Below, in pieces: positions 18,915-28,068 of a DNA stretch of 64,000 bases. The stretch covers positions 186,001-250,000 of the forward strand of contig NZ_JAJOIL010000037.1 in assembly GCF_021209385.1 (NCBI RefSeq), read 5' to 3'. The DNA comes from Seleniivibrio sp. GTDB taxonomy: Bacteria > Chrysiogenota > Deferribacteres > Deferribacterales > Geovibrionaceae. The notes below the pieces were generated by a model. That model saw nothing but the letters and a program-made list of their open reading frames with translations. It did not search any database and was not told where the DNA came from. Positions within the stretch are counted from its first letter, which is position 1, and every line of letters begins with the position of its first letter. The position numbers and the translations under genes were made by a program.

Positions 18915-19916
18915 CTATTTTCTATATACTGAATATCCTACATACGCCAATATCAGCACCCAGATCACCGCGATAGGTATAAGCACTTTAAGATAGAACG
19001 GCCATTCGGAAAAGCCCATAAACGATTTTTTCTCATAAAGCCCTATATTCAGCGAACGCATCAGTTCGTATATGCTGATATAGCTGACCGGCATTATCCA
19101 TCCTGCATAATTGCTGTCTTTAAGCACGGGTGCGTCATGGGGAATGTTTGTCATGATGTTCTGAATATCCGTAACAACCTGATCAGGAACGTCCTTTCCC
19201 GCCATAAACGCCCATTCAGGATAAAGCTTTGTGCTGTGCAGAAGAGGCAGTCCGTCTGAAACACTGTTCAGCACTTTCACATTTTTCAGGTCTATTTTTC
19301 CTTTCTTTGCCATGTTCTCAAGTATGCCGGAACGGACACTTCCGACGTCCGCCTTGCCCGAAAGGACATAATCCACCACCTTATCCTGAGTTCCGGTGAA
19401 CACAACGCGGAAGTCTCTGCCCTCTTTAAGTCCAGCGTCTCGCACCTCTTTCAGCCCCATCCAGTAAGCCCCGAACCCTTCCGGATCTATACCGGCAAAC
19501 ACTTTTCCTTTTATATCCCTGAACGAGTTTATGTCGTTTCTGTCTGCGCGGGTGAACACAGCAGAAGAAAAATATGAAACTGTTTTTCCGTTGTATTCCT
19601 TAAGTTCTGTCAGTATTATACGCGCACCGTACTTCTCTTTCAGAATAACCGCTTCGGCGGGCTGTGTTATGACAACATCAATCTGCCCCGTTTCCATCAG
19701 TTTGCGCATCTGTTCAAAGCCGAAAACAGGCATCAGATAAAAAGAGTATTTGCTCTGCTGCTGTTCAAGATATGCAAGTGTGGGAGACCACATTTGATAG
19801 GCTTCCTGAATACCGTTATACGCCCTGACACCAACAGTGAATACTTTTTCCCTGTCAGCGTGAGCTGATCCGGCAAAAAGCAGTGCGAAGACAGCCAGAA
19901 GAATCATTTTACGCAT
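18915..19916 (-). CDS. PhnD-like periplasmic solute-binding protein with C-terminal membrane anchor
   Basis: A 333-aa protein. Signal peptide (cleavage near Ala-His-Ala), then a type 2 periplasmic-binding fold of the phosphate/phosphonate PhnD family: FTVGVRAYNGIQEAYQMWSPTLAYL start, DVVITQPAEAVIL, KGKVFAGIDPEGFGAYW, and GKADVGSVRSGILE. Unlike ABC-type PhnD it ends in a hydrophobic helix (about 306-330) and a basic tail, so it is membrane-tethered. No permease or ATPase genes are present. It sits 12 bp downstream of a sensor-kinase gene, so it probably presents a ligand to that kinase rather than to a transporter (inference). Ribosome site GAGGAA. Confidence 0.82.
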   Translation of the reverse strand: MRKMILLAVFALLFAGSAHADREKVFTVGVRAYNGIQEAYQMWSPTLAYLEQQQSKYSFYLMPVFGFEQMRKLMETGQIDVVITQPAEAVILKEKYGARIILTELKEYNGKTVSYFSSAVFTRADRNDINSFRDIKGKVFAGIDPEGFGAYWMGLKEVRDAGLKEGRDFRVVFTGTQDKVVDYVLSGKADVGSVRSGILENMAKKGKIDLKNVKVLNSVSDGLPLLHSTKLYPEWAFMAGKDVPDQVVTDIQNIMTNIPHDAPVLKDSNYAGWIMPVSYISIYELMRSLNIGLYEKKSFMGFSEWPFYLKVLIPIAVIWVLILAYVGYSVYRK

Positions 19917-19928
19917 AAAATTCCTCGC

Positions 19929-21887
19929 CTAGGCAGTGAATTTCGGCAGTATCACAGTGAACATAGCGCCATCTTTTGTGTTGGATGCGGTGATGCTGCC
20001 CTTCATGTGGTTTTCAATGATGGCTCTGGTCATATACAGACCAATGCCCGTACCTTCCTCGTTCTGTTTTGTGGTAAAATACGGCTCGAACATCCTTTCC
20101 ATTACGGTATCGTCTATCCCGCCGCCATTATCGGATATATAGAAGGTGATCTGGTTCCCATCCGCTTCAAGTATTATATCAATTATACCTTCATTTATTT
20201 TTCCGGCGCGGATTTCTTTGAGTATGGCGTCCTTTGAATTCTGAATTATGTTCAGAACCGCCTGTTTCATTTCGCCCGGAAATCCGCTCACGATAGCGGT
20301 TTCAGCCATTTTTCCCGGATTTTCGTTAATACCTTCGGCATAAACGAATATATCGCCGCCGCTTCTGCATGTATAGTTCAGTGTGATACCGTTGTATTTC
20401 ATCTGAGCGCTTATAAGCCTTATAACCTCTATCATACTGTTAATGATGGAGAATTGTTTTTCTGTCTTGTCCGCGCGGAAGAAGTTTCTGAAATCATCTA
20501 TCGTGGTGGACATATGCTGAAGCATTGTCATTATCTTCTCTTCAAAATCGGCCGCCTCTTCCACATCAAACCGCCCGTCCCGCTGGGTTATCAGATAACT
20601 CTGAACGGCAAGTCCTATAATGTTAAGCGGCTGACGCCACTGGTGCGCAATTGCGTTAACCATGCGTCCCATATCCACAAACTTCTGCTGTTCAAAGAGA
20701 AGCTGTTCGTTCTTCTGCCTGAGTCCGGTCTCAAGTTCAACCATGTTCTTAAGTCTGCCGTTGATATCCTGAAGCTCTGTCTCGCGCTGTTTTATCCGCT
20801 TGATAAGCTCGTTGTATGCGGAAACAAGCTCACCGATATCATCGCTTCTCTTTATGGGCAAGAACTGGTCATAATCCAGAGACTCGGCTTTGCGCACCGC
20901 TGTCTGAAGCTCTTTCAAAGGCTTTGTCACTGCTAAATTCAGCAAAAACAGACTTACAGGCACCACAAGAACCAGAACAAAAAATGATATCATTATAAAT
21001 CCCATGAGGATGCTCTGGCGGATGTCACGCACGGCATAGTCGTGGGCGGAAAATCCGAAATCCACCGACGTATCGCCGTCTATCACCCATCTCTGGAAAT
21101 ATATGTTCATACCGTCCGCACGCTGCATACGTTCAGCAGTGGTGAAGCTTTCAGGGAAAAGTGTCGTGTACTTATTATCAGGTCTTATTGTATCGTCAAA
21201 AACCGTCCAGCCATTGATATAATAAGTAAATCCCATTCCGGTGGCGGCCTCAACCTGACGCACAAAAGTGCTGTCCAGAAAATCAGCTGACATAACGGTC
21301 ATACGGCTGCCGTTTCTTACAGCCTCCGCCGAATACTGAACCGTAAGAATTCCCGAAATATCGCTGAAACTGTAGCCTCTGCGGATGTGTTTTGAGTTTG
21401 AAAGAAAATCTTTTACGAAAGCCACATTCCCGAAATCAGGAAGTATCTCACCGTTTCTGATAATGACAGGTTTTCCGCCTGTATCAATATAACCGCCGTA
21501 ATAGTCTCCGTTTTCACGAAAAGCAAACACCCGCAGTTTCATCTGTCCGTCATAAACGGCAAGCGCTCCGACGTTGCCCAGATTCGCCATCTCAGACAGC
21601 TTCGACGCTTCTTTAAAGAGTCCGGTCTCAGAAGAAAAATCCATTATCCCGAAATAATCCGAACTCGATATAACGTCTGTGTATTTAAGAAGGTCTACCT
21701 GAAGACTTTTGATCTTTTCGTTGAGAACTGCGAAGGAGGTTCTGAAGGAAGAGGCGGTGCGCCAGTTTATATTTGACACGGTCATAGTGTACAGAGTGAC
21801 TGCAAAAACGGCACACATAAGCAGTATTGTGAGCATCACAAAAATAAAAAGCTTTGTTCTGACGCTCTTAATTTCAGGGATAATCAT
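19929..21887 (-). CDS. membrane sensor histidine kinase with periplasmic sensor domain
   Basis: A 652-aa protein. Transmembrane helix about 11-32, an extracytoplasmic domain of about 240 residues, second helix about 282-310, a HAMP segment (NLAVTKPLKELQTAVRK), a coiled coil (to about 400), then the kinase core: H-box MVNAIAHQWRQPLNIIG, N-box IQNSKDAI, G1 ISDNGGGIDD, and GTGIGLYMTRAIIE. The H-box type is frequent in epsilon- and deltaproteobacteria-like kinases. No receiver domain or dedicated regulator is adjacent; the nearest is the NtrC-type gene across the 850-bp gap. The start follows GGAGAAAG. Co-transcription with the PhnD-like gene is likely. Confidence 0.9.
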   Translation of the reverse strand: MIIPEIKSVRTKLFIFVMLTILLMCAVFAVTLYTMTVSNINWRTASSFRTSFAVLNEKIKSLQVDLLKYTDVISSSDYFGIMDFSSETGLFKEASKLSEMANLGNVGALAVYDGQMKLRVFAFRENGDYYGGYIDTGGKPVIIRNGEILPDFGNVAFVKDFLSNSKHIRRGYSFSDISGILTVQYSAEAVRNGSRMTVMSADFLDSTFVRQVEAATGMGFTYYINGWTVFDDTIRPDNKYTTLFPESFTTAERMQRADGMNIYFQRWVIDGDTSVDFGFSAHDYAVRDIRQSILMGFIMISFFVLVLVVPVSLFLLNLAVTKPLKELQTAVRKAESLDYDQFLPIKRSDDIGELVSAYNELIKRIKQRETELQDINGRLKNMVELETGLRQKNEQLLFEQQKFVDMGRMVNAIAHQWRQPLNIIGLAVQSYLITQRDGRFDVEEAADFEEKIMTMLQHMSTTIDDFRNFFRADKTEKQFSIINSMIEVIRLISAQMKYNGITLNYTCRSGGDIFVYAEGINENPGKMAETAIVSGFPGEMKQAVLNIIQNSKDAILKEIRAGKINEGIIDIILEADGNQITFYISDNGGGIDDTVMERMFEPYFTTKQNEEGTGIGLYMTRAIIENHMKGSITASNTKDGAMFTVILPKFTA

Positions 21888-22132: not shown

Positions 22133-22148
22133 TGGCGAAAAACAGCCA
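22133..22148 (+). promoter_or_regulatory. candidate enhancer site 1 (NtrC-like dyad)
   Basis: TGGCGAAAAACAGCCA has TGGC-N8-GCCA symmetry and is centred about 174 bp upstream of the predicted sigma-54 start at 22315. It matches the site at 24174-24189 in 15 of 16 positions, read on the opposite strand. Confidence 0.6.
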
Positions 22149-22173
22149 ACATAAAAACGAATAAAAGACTTAT

Positions 22174-22189
22174 TGGCAGATTTTCGCCA
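22174..22189 (+). promoter_or_regulatory. candidate enhancer site 2 (NtrC-like dyad)
   Basis: TGGCAGATTTTCGCCA; its reverse complement matches site 1 in 14 of 16 positions. It is centred at about -133. The centre-to-centre distance from site 1 is 41 bp, close to four helical turns, as expected for cooperative binding on one DNA face. Confidence 0.6.
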
Positions 22190-22288
22190 CACCGGCACTG
22201 TAGTAAAAGTGTGGAAAGGGAACCAAATAAAAAAACTATTCATTATCTTTCAAATACTTAGAGACGCTAAATATAAATATTACATTTT

Positions 22289-22304
22289 TGGCACACGCAT
22301 TGCT
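22289..22304 (+). promoter_or_regulatory. sigma-54 (-24/-12) promoter driving a putative small RNA
   Basis: TGGCAC-ACGCA-TTGCT is an exact RpoN consensus with GG-N10-GC spacing. The predicted start is 22315. Downstream is not a gene but a series of stem-loops closed by a terminator. Confidence 0.85.
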
Positions 22305-22314
22305 CTAATAAGTA

Positions 22315-22506
22315 CTGAAACGTACGCAATAGGTATCAGATTTAAACATGGGTTCGGCGTAAGCCGAGGGGGAGTGTCTTTTCGGCGGGCGGATTGCCCG
22401 CTGACAGGACAGTAAAAAAGCAAATAGCCACAAATCAATAGATGCATAGGCGGTATCAACCGCTTTTCGCCCTGCTGAGGTCTCCAATACCGGCAGGGCT
22501 TTTTTA
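22315..22506 (+). ncRNA. putative sigma-54-dependent structured small RNA, about 190 nt
   Basis: From the predicted start: hairpin 1 (22315-22321 with 22333-22339, one mismatch), hairpin 2 (22353-22368, GTAA tetraloop), hairpin 3 (22385-22401, six GC pairs with a GGATT loop), an A-rich single-stranded stretch (22411-22440), hairpin 4 (22450-22463) and an intrinsic terminator (22469-22499 plus T6). No ORF with a convincing ribosome site fits; the only candidates are a 4-codon ATG frame and a 13-codon GTG frame near 22373. The RNA lies between a sensor kinase and an NtrC-type gene, recalling the CbrB-CrcZ arrangement of Pseudomonas. GGA triplets at 22391 and 22407 (the first in a hairpin loop) would also suit CsrA binding. 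No known RNA family was recognised. Confidence 0.65.
22469..22506 (+). terminator. intrinsic terminator of the putative small RNA
   Basis: GCCCTGC/GCAGGGC stem (7 bp plus a T-G pair) with a 13- to 15-nt loop, followed immediately by six T residues. Confidence 0.85.
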
Positions 22507-22738: not shown

Positions 22739-24103
22739 TTACACCAGTCCGTATTTTTCCAGTTTATACCTTAAAGTGCCTCTGGGGATGTTCAGAAGTT
22801 TGGAGGTGCGCAGAACGTTTGCACCTGTGAGAACAAGAGCTTCCGAAAGAAGCTGTTTTTCGATGTTTTCCATAGCGGCTTCAAAATCCATTCCTTCGTG
22901 GGGTATATGCAAATTATTCTGAACCCCGTTCTTAGGTTTTTCACCGGAAATTTCGCGAGGCAGCATATCAGGGGTGATGATCTCCTTGCTGTACATGATA
23001 CAGATGCGTTCCACAATGTTCTTCATCTCACGGATATTACCCGGCCATTGATACGCCTTGAAAAGCTCCAGAGCCTCTTTTGAAACCTCTTTAATATTCT
23101 TTTTGAACTCAGTGTTGTAACGTTTGATAAAATGATCAAGGAGCGGTGCTATATCCTCTGTACGCTCCCGCAGCGGCGGCAGAGACAGAGGAAACACATT
23201 GAGTCTGTAAAACAGATCCTCTCTGAACTCCTTATCGTTTATGGCGGCGCGCAGGTCTTTATTTGTTGCCGCAATAATGCGGACATCTATGTCAATATTC
23301 CGGGTGCTGCCCAGCCTGCGTATCTTTCTCTCTTCCAGAACCCGCAGAAACTTCACCTGAAGGTTCATATCCATCTCGCCTATCTCATCCAGAAATACAG
23401 TTCCTCCGGCTGCATCCTCCAAAAGACCTATCTTTCTTGTTTTGGCATCAGTAAACGCACCCTTTTCATGTCCGAAAAGCTCGGACTCAAGCAGGTTGAA
23501 CGGAAGTGACCCGCAGTTTATATCGACGAACGGCTTGCCCTTGCGCGGCGAAAGGTTATGTATCGCTCTGGATACAACCTCTTTCCCCGTGCCGCTTTCA
23601 CCCGTAATAAGCACTGTAGCTGTCTCGTGTTTGGCAACCTCGCGGATTTTCATGAAAACGTCAGTCATAGCCGGGCTGACACCGACAACTTCCGGCAGAA
23701 CCGAGCCGTCACGTTTATATGATTTGAGTTCACGCTTGAGGCTTCTGGTCTCAAGAGCCAGCCGCACGATAAGGTGAAGAGCATCAGCCTTGAAAGGTTT
23801 TTTGATATAGTCGTAGGCACCCATCTTAAGAGCTTCAACAGCACTTTCAACGGTTCCATAACCTGTTATGATTATTACAAGAATTTCAGGATCCACCTCT
23901 TTCATCTCCCGCAGGATATCAAGTCCGCTGTCCCTGCCAAGATTCAGATCGAGAAGAACAAGGTCAATATCCCCTTCAGTGAGCATATGAATTGACTCAT
24001 GCCTGTTCTGGGCAACAGCAACGTCATATCCTTTTAATGTGAGAGTTCTTTCGAGGTTTTCGCGAATAAATATTTCATCATCGACAACGAGTATTTTTTC
24101 CAT
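22739..24103 (-). CDS. NtrC-family sigma-54-dependent response regulator
   Basis: A 455-aa protein with three domains. Receiver at about 1-120 (KILVVDDE; phospho-Asp in LVLLDLNLG; DYIKKPF). AAA+ domain at about 140-375 with Walker A GESGTGKE, the sigma-54 contact loop GAFTDA, Walker B GTVFLDEIGEM and the arginine-finger region PPLRERTEDI. Fis-type HTH at the end (NVLRTSKLLNIPRGTLRYKLEKYG). It is the only complete sigma-54 activator in the window, so it is a good candidate for driving the small-RNA promoter and perhaps the flavoprotein promoters (inference). ATG 24103 was preferred over an upstream TTG. It follows the NtrB-like kinase gene on the same strand. Confidence 0.95.
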   Translation of the reverse strand: MEKILVVDDEIFIRENLERTLTLKGYDVAVAQNRHESIHMLTEGDIDLVLLDLNLGRDSGLDILREMKEVDPEILVIIITGYGTVESAVEALKMGAYDYIKKPFKADALHLIVRLALETRSLKRELKSYKRDGSVLPEVVGVSPAMTDVFMKIREVAKHETATVLITGESGTGKEVVSRAIHNLSPRKGKPFVDINCGSLPFNLLESELFGHEKGAFTDAKTRKIGLLEDAAGGTVFLDEIGEMDMNLQVKFLRVLEERKIRRLGSTRNIDIDVRIIAATNKDLRAAINDKEFREDLFYRLNVFPLSLPPLRERTEDIAPLLDHFIKRYNTEFKKNIKEVSKEALELFKAYQWPGNIREMKNIVERICIMYSKEIITPDMLPREISGEKPKNGVQNNLHIPHEGMDFEAAMENIEKQLLSEALVLTGANVLRTSKLLNIPRGTLRYKLEKYGLV

Positions 24104-24137
24104 ATCCGATCCATGCAAATAAATGTGTATAAAAAGC

Positions 24138-24172: not shown

Positions 24173-24190
24173 ATGGCGGTTTTTCGCCAT
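24173..24190 (-). promoter_or_regulatory. third TGGCGAAAAACCGCCA dyad; regulator site or terminator hairpin
   Basis: On the minus strand ATGGCG-AAAAAC-CGCCAT is a perfect 6-6-6 dyad, 15/16 identical to enhancer site 1 over its core. It lies just upstream of the candidate promoter of the NtrC-type gene, so autoregulation is possible. It is also 3 bp past the kinase stop and followed by GTTTTTC, so it could equally be an intrinsic terminator of the chemoreceptor-kinase transcript. Confidence 0.5.
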
Positions 24191-24192
24191 CA

Positions 24193-25104
24193 CTATAAAT
24201 TAAATCTGATACAAAAATCCGTACCCTTACCGGACTCGCTCTCAACGGTGATTTCGCCTCCGTGCCTGCGTACTATGTCGCGAACAACGGAAAGTCCTAT
24301 TCCTGTTCCGTCTTTTTTATCGGTAAAGAAAGGTTCAAAGATCATATGTTGCTTTTCCGTGGAGATTCCTGAGCCTGTGTCCTTAAAGTGAATACAAATG
24401 CAGCCGTCTGCCGCCTTTGCGGTCACTGTCAGATTTCCGCCACCTGCCATAGCCTGAACCGCATTGATAATGAGATTGTGAAATGCCTGGCGCAGTTTGC
24501 TGCCGTCGGCGAGTATGTGCGGGATATCCGGTTCGATATCGGTCTGGACGTTAACTCTGTTGATAACGCAAAGCTTGCTGTTGAGCATCAGCACTTCGGA
24601 AAGCACAGCCGCAATATCCTCTTCGCCCATGGCGCGGAGATCGCCGCCGGAATATGTCAGCACGTCGGTAAGCATCCTTTCCAGACGATCAAATTCAGAT
24701 ATTGCCATACGGAGAAGATGTCTTTCATTCTCCGCACAGGTCATTCTGTCGTGGATGTCATCAAGAAGAACCCCTATGCCTGCAAGAGGATTGCGTATCT
24801 CATGCGCCAGAGAGGGCATTATCTCACCAAGCGACAAAAGTTTGGATGCTCTTTCGCGTTCACTGACATTCTCAAGGATGATCAGACTGTAACCGCTGCC
24901 TCCGACCTTTTCAGAAGCAACTGAATAATCCGAAGCAACGGAATTCTTCACTATGCTTATAACGGTTCCGTCACCGGCATCTTTAAGTTTTAATGCGGCG
25001 TCGCTCTCGTTTAAAAGCAGTTTGCCGACTTCATCCGCATAGACAGTGTCTCCGTTATCGTCAATAATAATGATCGCTCTGTAAAACTTAAGAAATCTGC
25101 TCAT
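24193..25104 (-). CDS. NtrB-like soluble sensor histidine kinase
   Basis: A 303-aa cytoplasmic kinase with no membrane helix. Residues about 1-85 form a small PAS-like sensor (IIIIDDNGDTVYADEVGKLLL). The core follows: H-box SLAHEIRNPLAGIG, N-box HNLIINAVQAM, G1 FKDTGSGIS, and DGTGIGLSVVRDIVRRHGG. It is the probable cognate kinase of the NtrC-type regulator encoded next. Its start overlaps the chemoreceptor stop by one base (TAATG), giving an operon order chemoreceptor-kinase-regulator. Confidence 0.92.
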   Translation of the reverse strand: MSRFLKFYRAIIIIDDNGDTVYADEVGKLLLNESDAALKLKDAGDGTVISIVKNSVASDYSVASEKVGGSGYSLIILENVSERERASKLLSLGEIMPSLAHEIRNPLAGIGVLLDDIHDRMTCAENERHLLRMAISEFDRLERMLTDVLTYSGGDLRAMGEEDIAAVLSEVLMLNSKLCVINRVNVQTDIEPDIPHILADGSKLRQAFHNLIINAVQAMAGGGNLTVTAKAADGCICIHFKDTGSGISTEKQHMIFEPFFTDKKDGTGIGLSVVRDIVRRHGGEITVESESGKGTDFCIRFNL

Positions 25105-26723
25105 TACACCCTGAATTTATCCACCATAGCATTAAGATGTGTCGCCTGCTGCGCAAGCTGGTCTATGGTGCTGTTCACTTCTGTCATAGTGTTTACGTTC
25201 TGTTCCAGTCCCTGCGACATCTGCACGGCGTTCTCATTAACATTCTGAATACCTTCGCTCTGTTCGCCGATGGCAAGGCGCACAGCGCTGTTGCTGAGAT
25301 TCACTTCATTAATAGCATCAACTATCTTTTTAAAGGAAGAGTCTGTCTCTTCAATAAGTTTATTACCTGTATTTATGTTCTTTTCTGCGGTTCCCATTTC
25401 GGTTGATGCCGATTTAGTATCCGCAATAAAGGTTCTTATAATAGAATCTATTTCAGATGTGGCGGACTGGGTTCTCTCCGCAAGTTTACGAACCTCGTCG
25501 GCAACAACTGCAAAACCTCTGCCCGCTTCCCCCGCCCTTGCCGCTTCGATGGCAGCGTTGAGAGCCAGAAGATTCGTCTGATCTGCGATATCGCTGATTA
25601 CGTTCAGTATCTCTCCTATCTGCCCAGACGAAGTCGTAAGGCTTTCTATGGTTTCAGCAAGTTTCGCAGTTGAATGAGTAATGCTTTCCATGCCGGACTT
25701 CACCATCTCAAGCTTTTCAGCTCCGTCATTTGTACTTGAAACCGCTTCGTTAAGAGGCACGGACGCCTGCTGAATGTTATCAACCATGACATCGCTGGTA
25801 GCACTTATCTGACTTATGGCAGACGCTATCGACTCAACCTGACGGGAGCGATCCATAAACGCGTCTGTCATATTTCTCATTGTGGAGTTCAGCTCTTCCG
25901 CGCTGACGCTGAGTCCGGATGCGTTCTCCTTAACGTCGGAGACTATCTCCTGAATACTGCCGACAAAACTGTCGAAATAACCTGACATTTCGCCTATCTC
26001 GTCTTTGGTATTTATATTGATGCGGCGCGTAAGGTCTCCCTTGCCGCCTGTAAAATCCTTAAGGATATGAATAAAACCATATAATCTTTTAATTACTGAC
26101 GTATAAACGAAAAGATATATCAGACCGGAAAGGACTGTTATCAGTACCGAAGTTGTGTATACCCAGAATGCTGCAGAACTCACAGCCTCTCTGTTTATAT
26201 CTGATGCCATCTCATATTCGTTTGTAATGGATGATACCAGCAGGTCAATTTCAGAGCTGTTCTCGCTCGCAATACCATCTATTTTGTCATCCAGAGCGGC
26301 AAAAACTTCATCTCCGCCACCGTTTTTTACAGCCGGAAAGAGTTCGCCTTCAATGATTTCTTTCTGTTTCGCAAACAGAGCAAGTATCTTTTCGATAGCC
26401 TCTTTTTCCTCTTCCGTATCTGCATAGTCGCGGAAACCGGAGGTCATTGCATCAATATCTTTGTAGTGAGCGCTGATCTCATCTATGAGTTCAGGGGCAA
26501 TTTGCATTGAATCTTTGTCGACAATAATATCCATTGCCGCAAGAGCAATGCCGCTGTTGTAAGTTTTCAGGAGGTTAACATCAAGAATCTCACGGGTTCT
26601 GGAATCCTGCATCTCAGAAGCGGATTTCGCCCCCGAAAGTTTGACGCCGAGATATACGGCGGTAAATACGGAAACAGCGAACAGTACAGAGAAAAATAAA
26701 TTCAGCTTTGCCCTTATGGTCAT
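25104..26723 (-). CDS. methyl-accepting chemotaxis protein (four-helix-bundle sensor)
   Basis: A 539-aa chemoreceptor. Helix about 7-27, a helical periplasmic domain of about 150 residues, second helix about 178-205, HAMP, and a signalling coiled coil with the hairpin-tip motif ([34 protein letters not shown]). The ATG at 26723 was chosen for the GAGGTG upstream; a TTG four codons earlier lacks one. Translationally coupled to the NtrB-like kinase, an unusual pairing that suggests shared input or adjacent signalling. Confidence 0.94.
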
Positions 26724-26801
26724 AACGCACCTCAAAATAAAAACTTATTAGCTAATAGAATATACCGATTCCGTCTTAATTTAACAAGTGAATGTTCTGT
26801 G

Positions 26802-27996
26802 CTATATTCTTCCCTTTTTTCTGAGCCACATAAAGAGAAATGGCCATATGATAAGCACAGCCAGCGAAATAGACATTATCATATAACCGTAATAGCGCAG
26901 AGGATCAGGGTGAGGCAGTGTAACGAGCCACATACAGAGAGCGCCCGCCATGAACTGATAAAAAACCATGAAGGATGATGCAGAGCCTATGTCTGTACGA
27001 ACCTGCTCAAGGACAAGACTTGAACTGACAGGTCTGTTGAAACCCATAAAAAAAAGCAAATATGAACATACCGGCTGCAAAAAATTCATAACCGAGGTGG
27101 TTGAAGAGCAGCACAAAAAGTCCGCCGACAAACGTACCGATAAAACCTGTGGTGAGCATTCTGGACTGTTTGAGCTTTATGGAAAGTTTAGCGCTGGCAA
27201 ATGACCCAGCCATGGCGCAAACTGCGTTAAGCCCGAAAAGAAGGCTGAAAAGCTGACCGGAAAGCCCGTATACCTTAATGTAGGCAATAGGAGAGAACGC
27301 TATGAAGCCGTAAAACGGGGAGATGGAAAGCCCCATAACGGTTGTTGCCACAGCATATTCTCTATTGAACAATAACGATTTATAGCGCAGAAAAAGAGAA
27401 ATGATACTCCCCTTAATAAACTCTTTTGATGTCTCTTCATATCCCAAAGCTATCATCGAAGTGATAAGCACCATGGTACCCTGTGCAAAAAATATAAGCC
27501 TCCACGATCCAAGTCCGAGAAGCATTGTGCCTATGGAGGGCGCAACCATCGGCGCAACTGCAAGAATAACACCTATATATGCCAGCGCCTTCTGGCGTTC
27601 TGCTCCTTCATATCTGTCCCTGCATATTGCCATAACCATGGCGGACGGCGCGGCGGCTCCCATTCCCTGTATAATGCGGAAAAGGATAAGCATTTGCGGG
27701 TTCGTTGCAAATCCGCACAGAAAACTGGAAATAACGAAAAGCCAAAGACCGAAAAGCAGTACCGGTCTGCGTCCGAACTTATCTGAAAGTGGTCCGAATA
27801 TCAAAAGAGACGAACTGAAAGAGGCAAACCAGAGAACCAGAGAAAGATTGACCACGGAAACGTGAACGTTCCAGTCTGCCGCTATAGTGGGAATAGCCGA
27901 AAGATACATATCAGTTGCCAGAGGCGGGGTTGCTCCGATCAGTGAAAGAAATATAATATAAATTGACGGGTTTTTGATTTTGAATGAACTCAACAT
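26802..27996 (-). pseudogene. Bcr/CflA-type MFS drug transporter, frameshifted at a T8 run
   Basis: The N-terminal frame (27996 to about 27050) has the DHA1 hallmarks ATDMYLSAIPTIA, GPLSDKFGRRPVLL and a FRIIQGMGAAAPSAM helix. The frame then runs into a stop at 27007. The next frame carries on from the same helix (FFMGFNRPVSSSLVLEQ) to 26802. Deleting one T (A on the plus strand) from the run at 27048-27055 restores a full 12-helix protein of about 397 aa. As with the two genes at 4.7-6.6 kb the break is in a homopolymer, so sequencing error, slippage or true inactivation are all possible. Confidence 0.8.
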
Positions 27997-28068
27997 TAAA
28001 GTCTTCTCTCCAAATAATAATAGAACGCTTCGATTATATCAGGTATACTCTTTTTGAGGTAATATTCA

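Follow-up and report, generated by a model that had tools for sequence, protein, structure and literature searches.

A candidate small RNA occupies the promoter slot of a transporter gene and is the predicted output of an AtoC-class two-component system in Seleniivibrio

The stretch of DNA analyzed here, a 64-kb window of a 2.9-Mb Seleniivibrio genome (G000), carries on its minus strand a gene for a sigma-54-activating response regulator (22739-24118) with Pfam receiver, AAA+, and Fis-type HTH domains. The protein is assigned to the AtoC class on the basis of its best NCBIfam match, which at 466 bits lies under the model cut-off of 714. A short soluble histidine kinase of 303 amino acids, the probable partner of the regulator, is encoded next to it (24193-25104, minus strand); its counterpart in G008, the most distant of the Seleniivibrio genomes compared, has about 216 amino acids. 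Beyond the 3' end of the regulator gene lie two dyads and, on the plus strand, a sigma-54 promoter and a predicted small RNA of ~191 nt (22315-22505), whose start is placed from the promoter and its end from a T tract. In the window and in three close species, the shortened kinase gene is immediately preceded by a chemoreceptor gene (25104-26735), which is absent from the G008 locus sequence examined. Farther away, positions 18915-21887 encode a periplasmic protein of the phosphonate-binding type, similar to the sensor portion of the tetrathionate kinase TtrS, and next to it a histidine kinase that lacks a nearby response regulator of its own. These two genes point away from the RNA and do not occur at this locus in G008; their products might also feed the AtoC-class regulator.

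The promoter (22289-22304, plus strand; TGGCACACGCATTGCT) fits the -24/-12 consensus TGGCAC-N5-TTGCW without mismatch, as a sequence-only reading of this DNA had already recognized. With one mismatch allowed, this pattern occurs four times in the window versus 2.6 expected; it is thus not rare by itself, and its support comes from conservation in all five members of the genus. The same reading held that the promoter drives no gene, which agrees with the convergent orientation of the next downstream gene, that of the regulator. The genome encodes rpoN, together with hfq and csrA. Two further exact matches in the window lie on the minus strand at 2254-2269 and 1146-1161, the former directly preceding an outer-membrane-type protein gene (1314-2270) that may also be controlled by sigma-54.

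Upstream of the promoter, two 16-bp dyads, to which no strand is assigned, are centered at about -174 and -133 relative to a start near 22315: a distal one at 22133-22148 (TGGCGAAAAACAGCCA) and a proximal one at 22174-22189 (TGGCAGATTTTCGCCA), together a conserved pair of GGC-N8-GCC sites. A third, likewise unstranded copy at 24174-24189 (TGGCGAAAAACCGCCA), between the kinase and regulator genes, points to likely autoregulation of the regulator gene. The window contains seven dyad matches with up to two mismatches versus 0.5 expected, a number reached in none of 100 shuffles, and its three exact matches all fall at the RNA/regulator locus. Genome-wide, TGGC-N8-GCCA with the right inner sequence is found in three places, namely at the two dyads ahead of the RNA and at 24174 ahead of the regulator gene, and two-mismatch matches elsewhere are scattered at about control level. 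Among the part of these matches examined, none was found to recur beside another conserved sigma-54 promoter. Since strong sites occur only before the RNA and the regulator gene, the RNA seems to be the principal output of the AtoC-class regulator, in addition to autoregulation. The sequence-only reading had described tandem NtrC-like dyads beside an NtrC-type regulator. The two dyads, their 41-bp spacing, and their positions stand, as does a predicted sigma-54-controlled RNA beside its own regulator, whose sites cluster at the locus; "NtrC-like" holds for the protein class of the regulator, more exactly AtoC-class, and not for the sites, which are predicted from their conservation to be bound by the neighboring AtoC-class protein rather than by NtrC.

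The 193-nt segment that includes the RNA folds at -69.5 kcal/mol (z = -4.05), and none of 200 shuffles folds as well. Its weak 5' hairpin (22315-22339) has no support from conservation. All further elements are on the plus strand. Hairpin 1 (22353-22368), with a CGGC stem, carries a tetraloop (GUAA or GAAA) in three of the four close species and is absent in G008, and the essentially single-stranded GGGGGAG that follows (22368-22374) is invariant in all five species. Hairpin 2 (22375-22411) consists of an outer GUCUU...AGGAC stem and an inner GCGGGC-N5-GCCCGC stem, both paired in five of five species around a variable loop. An A-rich linker of variable length (22412-22439) leads to the unpaired AGATGCATA (22440-22448), a candidate pairing or protein-binding segment identical in all five. 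Hairpin 3 (22449-22464; GGCGGU-AUCA-ACCGCU), whose closing U-A pair is replaced by C-G in G008, is followed by an intrinsic terminator (22469-22505) with a 9-bp stem (22469-22499) and a T6 tract; in G008 this element shows four compensatory pairs and none broken. Our local scan missed the terminator because its loop has 13 nt and the scan admits loops of at most 8 nt. The hairpin series of about 190 nt with A-rich linker and terminator that had been read from the letters is therefore present as a unit at 22315-22505, and folds better than 200 of 200 shuffles.

We compared five Seleniivibrio genomes (G000, G008, G009, G010, and G011) with 46 further genomes from the phylum. DNA searches recovered the RNA as a single copy in all five. 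A covariance search across related genomes, which the sequence-only reading had named as a check on its proposal, matched five of five genomes of the genus and none of the 46 others, so that, among the phylum genomes searched, the predicted RNA appears restricted to Seleniivibrio. No Rfam family matched at the gathering score or at E values up to 5, and our literature search found no report of a regulatory RNA in Seleniivibrio or Deferribacteres. The description of this element as an undescribed structured RNA is borne out by the lack of an Rfam match and by its occurrence in five species with compensatory changes. Among the four close species, the RNA is 95-97% identical, with differences mainly in loop and linker and near-invariance extending to the stems. 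For comparison, identity to the window is 37-45% at fourfold-degenerate sites of the regulator gene; the stretch of 85 nt from site 2 to the promoter is 67% identical, and the 117 nt 3' of the terminator are 59-65% identical. In the fifth, distant species, G008, the 5' domain differs, and hairpin 2, AGATGCATA, hairpin 3, and the terminator are kept; all 26 pairs checked there in four helix segments are maintained, five of them through compensatory double changes. These counts leave out L103, a false match from a sister genus discussed below. Transcription is predicted from the DNA, and conservation together with compensatory change is strong evidence that the product would be a functional RNA.

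Orthologs of the regulator (64-68% identity) occur in three other genera of the family, in six genomes altogether. In all six, the GGC-N8-GCC site pair and a -24/-12 promoter are located just 3' of the regulator gene, and the coding start of a DASS-type transporter gene (Na_sulph_symp; NCBIfam DASS) comes within about 90 nt downstream of the promoter. One of these genera has a tandem duplicate of the transporter, and sites and promoter precede both copies. Across the four genera, paired sites and promoter thus accompany the orthologous regulator in 11 of 11 genomes, the GGC-N8-GCC pair being exact in 10 and the distal copy of G010 having one mismatch. The two dyads are 41 bp apart in the window, 40 bp in G010, 71 bp in G008, and 80-84 bp in the sister genera. 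The Seleniivibrio RNA therefore appears to occupy the promoter slot that would drive the DASS transporter gene in its relatives. Four of the five Seleniivibrio genomes encode a transporter 72-73% identical at another locus, which lacks such regulator sites and a sigma-54 promoter; G011 gave no transporter match, though the RNA is kept there. In several species, the relocated transporter gene is followed by tRNA-Pro (TGG), preceded by a degenerate tRNA-Pro-like copy (L053:3340-3560, L050:405-613). The kinases differ as well. The sister-genus homologue, of ~820 amino acids, carries HAMP and PAS domains and a Cache-like sensor whose Pfam score is just at or below the cut-off, and the Seleniivibrio kinase appears to have lost this sensor.

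The simplest account of these comparisons is that Seleniivibrio changed both the input and the output of the two-component system. We tentatively propose, as a possibility at nearly even chances, that within one family the output changed from a protein gene to a newly arisen RNA, with sites and promoter kept and the extracellular sensor of the kinase lost. As the regulator tree gives no root for the four genera, only parsimony speaks for a direction of the exchange. An origin of the RNA from the 3' end of the transporter gene was considered and rejected. Searches of the sister-genus loci found no trace of the RNA; the single weak match (L103, E = 0.0037) is the ordinary terminator of the transporter gene itself.

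As to function, we consider it rather probable that this ~191-nt noncoding RNA is a dedicated output of the two-component system, most likely acting in trans through Hfq-assisted pairing. The phosphorylated AtoC-class regulator (22739-24118) would bind the two dyads and loop to sigma-54 polymerase at 22289-22304, switching on the RNA, which would then pair with mRNAs with the assistance of Hfq and alter the translation or stability of its targets. Features expected of an Hfq-dependent sRNA are found in the genomic hfq gene, the terminator with its U tract, and a conserved unpaired candidate seed, and Hfq-type A-rich motifs in the RNA are weak. GGGGGAG, AGATGCATA, and, in the four close species, the 5' 38 nt are the candidate pairing segments. 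Against pairing stands that no conserved target emerged among those searched: across the genus, the exact 11-nt complement to the invariant segment turned up in the RNA itself and at one site in G009, and neither the transporter gene nor genes neighboring the RNA share complementarity to it. Elsewhere in the genome (L063:1198-1722; G000 contig 18, about 27480-28004), we noted a gene for a 174-amino-acid protein with two tandem Hfq domains and, immediately after it, a gene for a single-domain response regulator; the normal hfq gene lies at a separate position.

The main rival of mRNA pairing, which we regard as the less likely though a serious reading, is that the RNA sequesters an RNA-binding protein, be it CsrA, Hfq, or another. 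The near-total invariance among four species, stems included, would suit such a role, as would the presence of csrA and hfq and the precedents of CrcZ (PMC4063720) and of GlmY as a RapZ decoy (PMC7073468). Motifs of the CsrA and CrcZ kinds are, however, missing, and any protein sequestered may be a different one. A single GGA is kept in five of five species, unpaired within GGGGGAG between hairpins 1 and 2; the GGA in the hairpin 2 loop is missing from all relatives, and ANGGA is absent from the five sequences. A CsrA-binding role, suggested earlier from the GGA motifs in loops, is thus unsupported because neither repeated loop GGA nor ANGGA is found. RsmZ and CsrB resemble the Seleniivibrio RNA in having hairpins with some GGA in genomes encoding CsrA, but differ in their repeated loop motifs. 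Likewise, none of the five sequences contains AAYAAYAA, which leaves the CrcZ-type Hfq/Crc decoy equally without support.

Explanations other than a trans-acting or protein-binding RNA fare worse. A small protein encoded by the RNA, or a conserved double-stranded DNA element behind the conservation, is highly improbable. ATG-led frames do exist, e.g., MGSAKAEGECLVFGGRNAR in G009, but this frame has only four codons before its stop in G000 and G011 (MGSA*), is longer in two other species, and is absent in G008, and the ATGCATAGG frame runs without a stop before the terminator in four species. A coding transcript was rejected since the frames are not conserved across the five species, and the confinement of indels to loop and linker with pairing kept argues against both a coding and a DNA element. 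It is just as hard to credit that the RNA keeps the old regulon by controlling the mRNA of the relocated transporter. In the sister genera the orthologous regulator does have that transporter as its output, but the transporter gene has no complementarity to the RNA common to four species, and G011 keeps the RNA with no transporter match found. Duplex energies with the transporter mRNA, a measure that is crude for long sequences, were no better than those of shuffles, and this mRNA was set aside as a target. Least credible of all is a functionless leader left behind when the transporter gene moved away, for although sister genera have that gene exactly at the promoter and the Seleniivibrio copy stands elsewhere without sites or sigma-54 promoter, a decaying relic is excluded by the high identity of the RNA amid scrambled neutral neighbors and by its compensatory changes, and the sister-genus loci hold no RNA-like sequence apart from the one terminator match.

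Small RNAs driven by sigma-54 response regulators are known from other bacteria; what is new here is a predicted RNA without a match to any described family. In Vibrio, the sigma-54 response regulator LuxO has the Qrr small RNAs as its main outputs. The Seleniivibrio system shares this kind of output, but its RNA is a single copy of unrelated sequence, and no quorum-sensing partners were seen at the locus. Known pairs also include CbrB, which drives CrcZ (PMC4063720, PMC6292655), and QseF, which drives GlmY (PMC6075780). With regulator sites, promoter, and RNA at one locus, the layout is like that of CbrB-CrcZ or QseF-GlmY, and the earlier comparison with the former holds for this arrangement of regulator, sigma-54 promoter, and adjoining RNA. 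As with CrcZ, CrcY, and CrcX under CbrA-CbrB in Pseudomonas and Azotobacter, an AtoC/NtrC-type regulator and sigma-54 would drive a nearby small RNA gene; in contrast to CrcZ, the Seleniivibrio RNA belongs to another phylum and lacks both the Hfq/Crc motifs and an Rfam family. The enterobacterial GlmY system under QseE-QseF/GlrK-GlrR likewise combines a two-component sigma-54 activator, upstream activating sequences, and a structured RNA of ~200 nt, whereas the Seleniivibrio RNA is genus-specific, without an Rfam match, and the promoter slot of its relatives holds a transporter gene. The sister genera themselves resemble DctB-DctD and AtoS-AtoC, with a Cache-type kinase, an AtoC-class regulator, paired sites, a sigma-54 promoter, and a DASS transporter; Seleniivibrio differs from these in its predicted RNA output and in a kinase without the Cache sensor.

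The more unusual part of this system is that a protein gene and an RNA have been exchanged under a single conserved enhancer-promoter. Outside the well-studied phyla only a small number of regulatory RNAs have been described, and this one is directly testable since it comes with its putative regulator, sites, and promoter. The comparison with the sister genera would provide an unusually clear case of an RNA replacing a protein as the output of a signaling system and, if true, this output replacement would make the birth of an sRNA regulon traceable.
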